A DNA stretch of 64,000 nt from Ereboglobus luteus (lineage in GTDB: Bacteria; Verrucomicrobiota; Verrucomicrobiia; Opitutales; Opitutaceae): contig NZ_CP023004.1 of NCBI RefSeq assembly GCF_003096195.1, positions 2,460,501 to 2,524,500 on the forward strand, in the 5' to 3' direction. The position numbers were made by a program, and so were the translations under genes. Under the pieces are notes generated by a model. It was given only the letters and a program-made list of their open reading frames with translations. It did no database searches and was not told the DNA's origin. Positions 52,689 through 55,037 of this stretch are shown piece after piece (the first letter of the stretch is position 1; each line of letters starts with the position of its first letter).

Positions 52689-52714
52689 GGCGTGGGTGAC
52701 TGGGTTTGCTGTGG

Positions 52715-52747
52715 CCTCAGAATGTCAAAAAAGGCTGAGGTGTTTTC
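52715..52747 (+). terminator. Possible glpK terminator
   Basis: A 6-bp stem (CCTCAG 52715-52720 with CTGAGG 52735-52740) around a 14-base loop is followed by TGTTTTC, about 27 bases past the glpK stop. Moderately convincing. Confidence 0.5.
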
Positions 52748-52790
52748 GGGTTTCCTTCATCGCGCATAGCAATGTTCGTGTGTTCATACC

Positions 52791-52821
52791 CCTCATACAG
52801 AATTCCGCCTCATACAGAATT
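52791..52821. promoter_or_regulatory. Tandem 14-bp direct repeat upstream of the ParB/Mrr operon
   Basis: CCTCATACAGAATT occurs at 52791-52804 and again at 52808-52821 (17-base period), 40-70 bases before the ParB-like start. TTGACT follows at 52827. It may be an operator for the HTH protein it precedes. Confidence 0.55.
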
Positions 52822-52861
52822 AGCTTTTGACTGTAATAAAAAAATCATCTACTCAGACACT

Positions 52862-53992
52862 ATGGAAAAAATATCGGAATTTTTAACTCCGTTAAGGGTA
52901 AAAATAGATCAACTACTCCTTGATCCTAATAACCCCCGCTTTGCAGAACTAGGCGAAAATATTGATCAAGTTCCTGAGAACCGTTTCGCTGAAGAAAGAG
53001 TTCAGAAAGCGGCTTTCGAAAAAATGAAAGTGCCAAAGTTTAACGTAGCTGAGCTTCGTGATACTATCAAAGAATTAGGGTTTCTTCCTATGGACCGTAT
53101 TGTAGTTAGGGAGTGGAGAGAGAAAACAACGCCTCAAAAATATATAGTTATTGAGGGTAATCGCAGGTTAACAGCCCTTACGTGGCTGCTTGAACTTCAT
53201 GACGCAGGAAAGGAAACATTCAGTAAAAATCAATTAGAGAGTTTGGGAAATTTTGAAGTTTTATTACTTGATAGCCAGCGTGCCCCAAAAACTGCACGAT
53301 GGATACTACCTGGATTGCGTCATGTTTCCGGAATTAAGGAATGGGGACCTTATCAAAAAGCTCGAATGGTTTTTGAACTCCGCAATACGGGCAAAACACC
53401 TCAAGAGGTAGCTCAAAGTTTGGGACTATCGACAAGAGAATCCAATCAACTTTGGCGCGCATTTCTTGCTCTTGAACAAATGGGGAATGATGAGGAATAC
53501 CAAGAATATGCCGAACCAAAGCTTTACAGTTACTTTGAAGAAGTTTTTAAACGTCCAAATGTAAGGGAATGGTTAGGATGGTCAGATGAACAACAAAAAT
53601 TCACAAAAGAAAAAGAAATCAGAGAATTCTACGGTTGGATGAAAGGAGAAATTGGTGAAAATAATGAGCTTAGCGATCCAAAACTACCAGAAGCAAAATC
53701 TGTTCGTGATTTTTCAAAAATTATTGAGGATTCAAAAGCGCTCGCCATATTCCGTTCAAATGAAGGCACCTTAACACATGCTTTGGCCAGATTAGAGGCT
53801 GACAATCCTATTGATTACATATCAATCGTAACAACCTGCGAGTCTACACTACGTTCACTGCCGCCTGACATCTTGCGCAAGATGAATGAATCTGAATTGA
53901 ATAATTTGGAGCTACTGCGTTCAAGAATCGACCAAATCTTAATAGATCGAACACATTTACTTGGAGGTAACAGTGGGGAAGTTAAATCCTGA
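52862..53992 (+). CDS. ParB/Srx-fold nucleotide-binding protein with HTH, first gene of a putative restriction module
   Basis: A 376-residue protein. Residues about 12-145 are a ParB N-terminal/sulfiredoxin-like domain: LLLDPNNPRF (strand and box 1), AELRDTIKELGFLPMDRIVV, and Y-IVIEGNRRLTAL with E98-G99-N100-R101-R102 corresponding to the nucleotide-binding GxxRxxA box. Residues about 150-205 resemble the ParB middle domain, with HTH-like TPQEVAQSLGLSTRESNQLW. The C-terminal part is helical and unrecognised. It is strongly AT-rich compared with glpK before it and nifJ after it. It overlaps an Mrr-like nuclease gene by 20 bases. Coupling of a ParB-fold NTPase to a nuclease resembles GmrSD- and SspE-type restriction logic, though I recognise no named system. 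Confidence 0.8.
   Translation: MEKISEFLTPLRVKIDQLLLDPNNPRFAELGENIDQVPENRFAEERVQKAAFEKMKVPKFNVAELRDTIKELGFLPMDRIVVREWREKTTPQKYIVIEGNRRLTALTWLLELHDAGKETFSKNQLESLGNFEVLLLDSQRAPKTARWILPGLRHVSGIKEWGPYQKARMVFELRNTGKTPQEVAQSLGLSTRESNQLWRAFLALEQMGNDEEYQEYAEPKLYSYFEEVFKRPNVREWLGWSDEQQKFTKEKEIREFYGWMKGEIGENNELSDPKLPEAKSVRDFSKIIEDSKALAIFRSNEGTLTHALARLEADNPIDYISIVTTCESTLRSLPPDILRKMNESELNNLELLRSRIDQILIDRTHLLGGNSGEVKS
53963..53968 (+). promoter_or_regulatory. Ribosome-binding site deciding the Mrr-like start
   Basis: A perfect GGAGGT sits four bases before GTG 53973, favouring that start over the in-frame TTG at 53961. Confidence 0.7.
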
Positions 53993-54767
53993 CATTGTTG
54001 CTCAATGGGTTGAGCAAGATTGCCAACAAACAGACTATCTACCAGTCCGTGATGTTCTGGCTATATCATTACGCAATCGAATCCCTAATTTATCTGAAGA
54101 ACAAGCATCAGAGTATTCAGAAGAGCTCACTCAAGAAGTATGCAAATCACTAGAGTCTCGCATATATCAATATGCGCAAGATGGCATTATTGCGCCTTTT
54201 AAAATAGACTCTGATGAAGGAGCTAATTATATTAAATCCTCGTCAACTGTTGAGTCGGATTTACTGTTGGAATTACGAAAACGATCATCTGAAATATTCG
54301 AATTATTCTGCAAAGTGATTCTTTCAAAACTTTATGCGGAGGCATTTGTAGTAGGTGGATCACACGATGGAGGGGTGGATTTTTACGCAATAGGTTTACC
54401 GTGGGATAATTTGACAAATCCCATGCCTCCGTCCTCTAAAGCTTTGGTTATTGGACAATCAAAACGATACAAAAAAAACAATACTGTTGGTGAATGTGAA
54501 ATCCGAGAATTTATTGGAGGGGCTATAAATCAGGCTGATGAACTTCGTCGAAAGCATCCTGATCGCGTTGGCTTACTAACGCCTCTCTTACTTGCATTTT
54601 GGACAACAGGCGATTTTTCTGTAAGCGCTAAAAAATATGCTCGAAAATTAGGCCTATGGTATTTGAACGGAATCGGATTAGCTCAATTAGCCACTCGCCT
54701 TGGATTGCAAGTAGCAGATTTAGATAATTTATATAATCAGCAAAATACCTCAGGCCTTGCTTTTTGA
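53973..54767 (+). CDS. Mrr-type PD-(D/E)xK restriction endonuclease-like protein
   Basis: A 264-residue protein from a GTG preceded by GGAGGT. Residues about 105-190 form an Mrr_cat-like nuclease core: FELFCKVILSKLYAEAF helix, GGSHDGGVDFYAIG with catalytic D136, and the strand ALVIGQSKRYKK with Q162-x-K164, then VGECEIREFIGGAINQADE. That D...QxK pattern defines Mrr-family type IV nucleases. The N-terminal ~100 residues are helical and unassigned; the C-terminus is mixed. It begins inside the ParB-like gene, so the two products are probably made together and may form a complex. AT-rich composition indicates transfer. DNA target (modified or phage DNA) is unknown. Confidence 0.82.
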   Translation: MGKLNPDIVAQWVEQDCQQTDYLPVRDVLAISLRNRIPNLSEEQASEYSEELTQEVCKSLESRIYQYAQDGIIAPFKIDSDEGANYIKSSSTVESDLLLELRKRSSEIFELFCKVILSKLYAEAFVVGGSHDGGVDFYAIGLPWDNLTNPMPPSSKALVIGQSKRYKKNNTVGECEIREFIGGAINQADELRRKHPDRVGLLTPLLLAFWTTGDFSVSAKKYARKLGLWYLNGIGLAQLATRLGLQVADLDNLYNQQNTSGLAF

Positions 54768-55037
54768 CATTGGCGATACCGTCTGCGCGAAGGGATGCAT
54801 CGCAGGCTTTCGCGGCCATATTCAGACATGGGCGAGTCGCCCATGCCACTCAATCCATCCCGATTCCACGGGCGAGACGCCCCAGAAAGACAACAGGGGG
54901 ACGAATGCAACGCGGCAGCGCCCGGGAGCGCGGGCGTCCGCCCGCAGGGTTGGAGGGTTGTGCGGCGCACGCACCGTCTTGCGGGCAGGATGCCCGCGTT
55001 CCCGGGATGCAAGCGGCGCGTTATAGTGCGCCTTTGC
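54768..55037. repeat. Cluster of REP/BIME-like palindromes between mrr-like gene and nifJ
   Basis: Nested palindromes: CATGGGCGA/TCGCCCATG (54827-54845), GCGGGCG/CGCCCGC (54930-54945), GCGGGC/GCCCGC (54981-54997), plus long outer arms CCCGGGAGCGCGGGC (from 54921) against GCCCGCGTTCCCGGG (to 55006) with one mismatch. They lie between convergent genes and could terminate both. No gene was seen. Confidence 0.8.

Follow-up and report, generated by a model that had tools for sequence, protein, structure and literature searches.

A co-inherited ParB-like and Mrr-like gene pair in Ereboglobus luteus: a candidate modification-free branch of a restriction family

Between glpK on one side and nifJ on the other, Ereboglobus luteus carries two overlapping genes, here called gene A and gene B, that we found linked across bacterial phyla and in phages. 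Our best explanation, held with slightly better than even confidence, is that they form a mobile two-subunit restriction module of type IV-like logic, and that within a widespread ParB-PD(D/E)XK restriction family this module represents the branch devoid of modification genes. From the comparisons below we infer a defence role, DNA cleavage, nucleotide use, a contact between A and B and the kind of target; the pair is probably type IV-like in character. The DNA analysed, hereafter the window, is a stretch of 64,000 nucleotides of contig NZ_CP023004.1 (GCF_003096195.1), forward strand, 2,460,501-2,524,500. The main elements of the locus, in window positions, are:

52862-53992, + strand: gene A, 376 aa, predicted ParB/KorB fold, HTH and helical C-terminal part
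53973-54767, + strand: gene B, 264 aa, predicted winged helix and Mrr/MspJI-type PD-QxK nuclease, GTG start
53963-53968, + strand: GGAGGT, putative ribosome-binding site of gene B, within gene A, read from the sequence
52791-52821, + strand: two perfect direct copies of the 14-bp CCTCATACAGAATT, 17 bp apart, preceding gene A by 41-71 bp
52689-55030, no strand: exchangeable glpK-nifJ interval, with different AT-rich cargo in a sister species

Both open reading frames are intact, the pair is present in a single copy in the genome, and the ATG at 52862 as start of gene A is backed by alignment to the nearest relative (L014). The initial annotation had described a 20-base overlap, a GGAGGT proper to the second gene and an AT-rich composition relative to glpK and nifJ, and coordinates and GC content agree: the overlap is exactly 20 bp, 4 bp separate GGAGGT from the GTG of gene B, and GC is 0.38-0.41 in the pair (39% for the insert) versus 0.60-0.67 over most of glpK and nifJ. 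The start it gave for the feature, 52791, has to be corrected, as this position is the first copy of the CCTCATACAGAATT repeat and not the start of gene A. This repeat, a possible operator or insertion footprint, is unique within the 4.17-Mb genome and is absent upstream of gene A in the nine relatives compared.

In another species of the same genus (G069), glpK and nifJ flanks that are 97-99% identical to those of the window enclose a different cargo. This argues for an exchangeable cargo position at the glpK-nifJ site, and for a pair that either arrived by horizontal transfer or disappeared from relatives. The interval, possibly a small hotspot, holds in G069 two unrelated AT-rich ORFs on the minus strand (153 and 326 aa; L200:745-2297), for which Pfam and PADLOC searches returned no match.

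The AlphaFold2 model of the gene A product has a mean pLDDT of 92.7. Its best match in the PDB, searched with Foldseek, is KorB (1.8e-7), followed by ParB and Noc, which leads us to predict a ParB-type N-domain with an HTH and, beyond these, a helical C-terminal part. Two regions of gene A are of particular interest:

53153-53167, + strand: EGNRR box, putative nucleotide site, residues 98-102, invariant in alignments
53294-53485, + strand: HTH region, about residues 145-208, helices in the model, fold match to KorB/Noc/ParB

The EGNRR box is unchanged throughout our 43-row gene A alignment. Fold and motif together make gene A a putative nucleotide-binding protein; its Pfam scores are below the cut-offs for both ParB_N (13.9 versus 26.3 bits) and GmrSD_N (20.4 versus 33.2 bits).

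The gene B product (mean pLDDT of the AlphaFold2 model, 89.9) divides into a helix-rich winged helix (residues 1-90) and a nuclease, with no SRA-like domain in the 264-aa chain. The corresponding segments and catalytic codons are:

53973-54242, + strand: winged-helix domain, residues 1-90, Z 5.7-6.0
54243-54710, + strand: nuclease domain, residues 91-246, MspJI Z 13.2
54378-54380, + strand: D136 codon, aligned to MspJI D334
54456-54464, + strand: Q162-S-K164 codons, aligned to MspJI Q355-A-K357

Residues 91-246 match the MspJI structure over 149 residues (rmsd 3.3) and that of AspBHI almost as well (Z 13.1). MspJI and AspBHI belong to the MspJI family of 5mC/5hmC-dependent nucleases. The Pfam Mrr_cat model passes (30.0 bits, cut-off 21), and when a profile of 12 gene B proteins of the window's branch was compared with PDB sequences, MspJI was the only significant match (4e-7). 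The MspJI residue numbers given here are counted from the start of the alignment at residue 270. Residues 2-90 match winged helices at moderate Z scores, and Pfam Mrr_N was not detected there. The two domain assignments of the initial annotation, a ParB-type EGNRR box with an HTH in the first product and a D136...Q162-x-K164 Mrr core in the second, are thus borne out, the residues being as it placed them and the predicted fold of gene A being of KorB/Noc/ParB type.

A profile scan with gene A over one genome per species returned 378 relatives, of which 80 were kept. Gene A alone had no matches in a viral collection, and a 7-sequence gene A profile succeeded there, with 146 relatives, 80 again being kept. 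Among the 101 non-redundant homologues with at least 1 kb of downstream sequence, 91 have a gene B with the D...Q core directly after gene A. Moreover, pairwise identities of A and B are strongly correlated (Mantel r=0.90 over 97 pairs, with a permutation maximum of 0.10). Linkage and correlated divergence together argue that A and B constitute one unit. Gene B evolves much faster than gene A (30% versus 54% identity to the nearest relative), which explains why gene B finds few relatives when used alone as a query. Whether homologues stay adjacent was the check proposed with the initial annotation, and its answer is clear: linkage is kept across phyla and in phages. In the window's branch, homologues are linked, D136, Q162 and K164 are kept in all 12 complete B proteins, and the partition-system alternative was not borne out.

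The unrooted tree of 108 gene A proteins splits into 88 rows and 20 rows, the latter including the window. On the larger side, hereafter the methyltransferase branch, a DNA methyltransferase lies within 2.5 kb in 76 of the 88 rows (C5 in 43, D12/N6 in 24, N4-type in 9), so that these A-B loci resemble restriction-modification gene sets in gene content. The methyltransferase type is clustered on the tree, with 22 changes versus a mean of 54 after shuffling, and none of 200 shuffles as low. Several of the 12 rows with no methyltransferase (L002, L004, L036, L075, L079, L081) correspond to a contig end, a remnant or a more distant methyltransferase. One of them, L075, shows an apparent truncated C5 methyltransferase (L075:9297-9605) adjoining an intact A-B pair, possibly a natural case of lost modification.

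On the window's side, only 2 of 20 rows have a methyltransferase within 2.5 kb. One is L085, which falls outside the supported clade, and the other is L014, whose methyltransferase is the Mod of a neighbouring type III-like system. A second, more careful tree, from which the longest branches were left out, groups the window with 13 relatives (support 98/90), a clade joined by L021 and L022 (100/100), with the methyltransferase branch split off at 100/100. The initial reading of the pair needs revision here: most relatives sit in a restriction-modification arrangement beside DNA methyltransferases, and the window belongs to a branch that lacks it.

The two branches also differ in the nuclease core. 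The QxK lysine, present in all 12 complete B proteins of the window's branch, is found in only 17 of 88 in the methyltransferase branch, where it is mostly replaced (QCA/QCG). A W-x-x-[KR] motif occurs slightly downstream in 60 of these 88 sequences and may represent a displaced catalytic lysine. Modification in this branch is perhaps not limited to methylation: in three marine genomes (L040, L068 and L078) the pair adjoins dnd (phosphorothioation) genes instead of a methyltransferase. In L040 and L068 it is preceded by dndG and dndH, and in all three it is followed by dndE, D, C and B. This suggests that these pairs are used together with phosphorothioation. A PbeC/DndD-like gene was also seen near the A-B pair in L207.

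Members of the window's branch come from Gammaproteobacteria, Acidobacteriota, Bacteroidota, Balneolota, a betaproteobacterial MAG, a cyanobacterium and phage or prophage contigs; half of the branch consists of viral contigs, and in L096 the pair lies within a block of phage structural genes. No member, phage contigs included, has a dedicated adjacent modification gene. The L014 pair has type III-like Res/Mod genes to one side and AbiEi/AbiEii to the other, and in L018 a C5 methyltransferase lies 3 kb off, behind an AriAB-like ATPase gene. A search of the window's genome for PF00145, PF01555 and D12-type methyltransferases turned up neither of the first two and a lone D12-type enzyme at 1.06 Mb (L202, 1,059,537-1,060,298), unlinked to the pair. 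The latter sits inside a longer open frame.

How would such a pair tell self from non-self? With no modification gene travelling with the branch, discrimination should rest on a feature of the foreign DNA. The lack of a self-mark, combined with a nuclease core most similar to that of a modification-dependent enzyme, makes type IV-like restriction the most economical reading. In its favour we count the position of L014 amid restriction and AbiE genes, the phage-borne members and the absence of PF00145 and PF01555 enzymes from the window's genome; against it, the C5 methyltransferase near the L018 pair, the D12-type enzyme of the window's genome and a gene B product devoid of an SRA-like domain. 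An Mrr-type nuclease domain does not by itself make an enzyme modification-dependent, LlaGI being a counter-example (PMC3874153). As to the nature of the mark, an argument for 5mC dependence from missing C5 methyltransferases in branch genomes is unsupported, since five of seven have such enzymes elsewhere. Indiscriminate cutting at 5mC would damage the hosts' own DNA, which makes a model of cleavage at any 5mC unlikely.

We propose that gene A would use its HTH to bind DNA and its ParB-type EGNRR site to bind CTP or another NTP, and would serve as a loading clamp or licensing subunit. Its partner B, once recruited or activated by A, would then cut DNA, the cue being something that marks DNA as foreign, for instance a modified base, as in type IV logic. 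In some type IV enzymes it is a winged helix that reads 6mA (PMC11037411), which would make the N-terminus of B a second candidate reader.

Three other explanations were weighed. The overlapping genes, the HTH gene placed first, and the small, mobile and phage-borne character of the pair would also fit abortive infection or a toxin-antitoxin system, gene A being a regulator or antitoxin and gene B a toxic nuclease freed on infection; a related A protein even occurs in PD-lambda-5, a 'compacted RM+Abi system' according to its authors (PMC9519451). However, with its 376 aa and its invariant nucleotide box, A is no small antitoxin, and the methyltransferases of the sister branch point to DNA discrimination, so that we regard this explanation as rather unlikely. 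We give still less credence to ordinary restriction-modification, in which A-B would cut an unmodified site and self DNA would be shielded by a methyltransferase from another locus of the genome. The methyltransferase-linked sister branch, the D12-type enzyme of the window's genome and the C5 enzymes in branch genomes are compatible with it, but no methyltransferase moves with the pair in the window's branch, even on phage contigs, PF00145 and PF01555 enzymes are absent from the window's genome, and clustering of methyltransferase type on the gene A tree would be unexpected if the enzyme were unlinked. Finally, a role in the biology of a phage or other element (partition, replication, host takeover), or a decaying remnant, could be argued from the partition and plasmid-regulation functions of the ParB/KorB fold and from the viral half of the branch, but is very unlikely given catalytic residues intact in 12 of 12 members, no ParA adjoining the pair, L014 lying between restriction and AbiE genes, and a sister branch found beside methyltransferase or dnd genes.

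Extending the type IV-like reading, we tentatively raise a bolder possibility, which we consider doubtful at this stage: a restriction class not yet described, whose ParB-type nucleotide-switched clamp would license a separate winged-helix PD-(D/E)XK nuclease, with a sister branch using varied self-marks (C5, N6 and N4-type methylation, phosphorothioate) and a markless window's branch attacking modified or foreign DNA. ParB-type nucleotide-switched DNA clamps are familiar from chromosome and plasmid partition; if the restriction model proposed here is right, they serve in addition as the subunit that licenses a restriction enzyme. A single family would then hold self-sparing, modification-linked versions and foreign-seeking, modification-free ones, and the switch between restriction-modification and type IV would be open to study by comparing sister pairs.

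Among known systems, E. coli Mrr has the same layout as gene B, a winged helix followed by a C-terminal PD-(D/E)XK variant nuclease (PMC3874153), and gene B passes its Mrr_cat model; Mrr, however, is a single-gene enzyme, whereas B is co-inherited with a ParB/HTH subunit. MspJI, with its Mrr-like domain and PD-QxK site (PMC12707154), shares an identical DGGVDF with B, in addition to the aligned catalytic residues. Its chain also includes an SRA-like reader, while B has an N-terminal winged helix and its ParB-like partner is a separate gene. GmrSD and SspE, which the initial annotation had cited as parallels, also combine a ParB/Srx-type domain with a nuclease. The parallel stands as a fold analogy, but kinship is not borne out by motif: GmrSD, a type IV restriction system, has a DGQQR motif and an HNH nuclease (PMC4619093), against EGNRR in A and PD-QxK in B, and with GmrSD_N below its cut-off we reject membership, as we do for SspE. 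Chromosome partition was likewise rejected, despite the ParB N-domain/HTH fold, as no ParA is linked to the pair, its neighbours being glpK and nifJ. For Druantia, DruM2-type matches of the neighbouring C5 methyltransferases were discounted, and no A or B match to Druf/Drug-type models appeared among the matches listed; the large genes that were checked proved to be DndH, a PDC-S37/Hhe-like helicase and other helicases, with no DruE.

Another partial likeness is to PD-lambda-5, a system validated against phages (Vassallo et al. 2022, PMC9519451). Residues 12-124 of gene A, the ParB-like N-terminal region, match the PADLOC model PD-Lambda-5_A (1.3e-14), and the D12 methyltransferases found beside many relatives match PD-Lambda-5_B (up to 9e-113). 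However, PD-Lambda-5_A profiles are mostly 428-613 aa long and adjoin a methyltransferase, whereas in the window A measures 376 aa, the Mrr-type nuclease is encoded separately and there is no methyltransferase; with a match limited to part of A and no adjacent PD-Lambda-5_B, we excluded membership.

The methyltransferase branch itself has a representative in a well-studied host. In phage Wphi and E. coli W, the triad gp98-gp96-cytosine methyltransferase has a ParB-like gene overlapping a D...Q-core nuclease gene, and differs from the window in its convergent cytosine methyltransferase and in a QCG core instead of QxK. Matches occur in 139 of 5426 E. coli genomes; at least 80% of the query is present in 103 of these, and identity reaches 99% or more in 103. 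The three genes are annotated as a ParB N-terminal domain protein, a hypothetical protein and a cytosine methyltransferase, and are probably an unrecognised restriction-modification set. Since E. coli W and about 2% of complete E. coli genomes carry a close methyltransferase-linked relative, under names that say little, laboratory strains allow a direct test of the question.

The pair had initially been presented as a system that could not be recognised. This is true insofar as we found no paper describing a ParB-HTH and Mrr/PD-(D/E)XK pair in the open-access literature (a coverage that leaves subscription papers and preprints largely outside), but gene A is not without relatives in defence catalogues: besides its distant similarity to PD-Lambda-5_A, it matches the PADLOC model PDC-M38A (PDLC04607) with an E-value of 4.5e-49 over residues 10-365, and all 43 aligned homologues match this model too. 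The profile has 715 positions, only the first half of which is spanned by the window's gene A, and gene B has no match to the PADLOC PDC-M38 models. PDC-M38 is a computational candidate, on which no paper was found in the open-access literature. The A-B pair is therefore a variant of known restriction systems rather than a new category.
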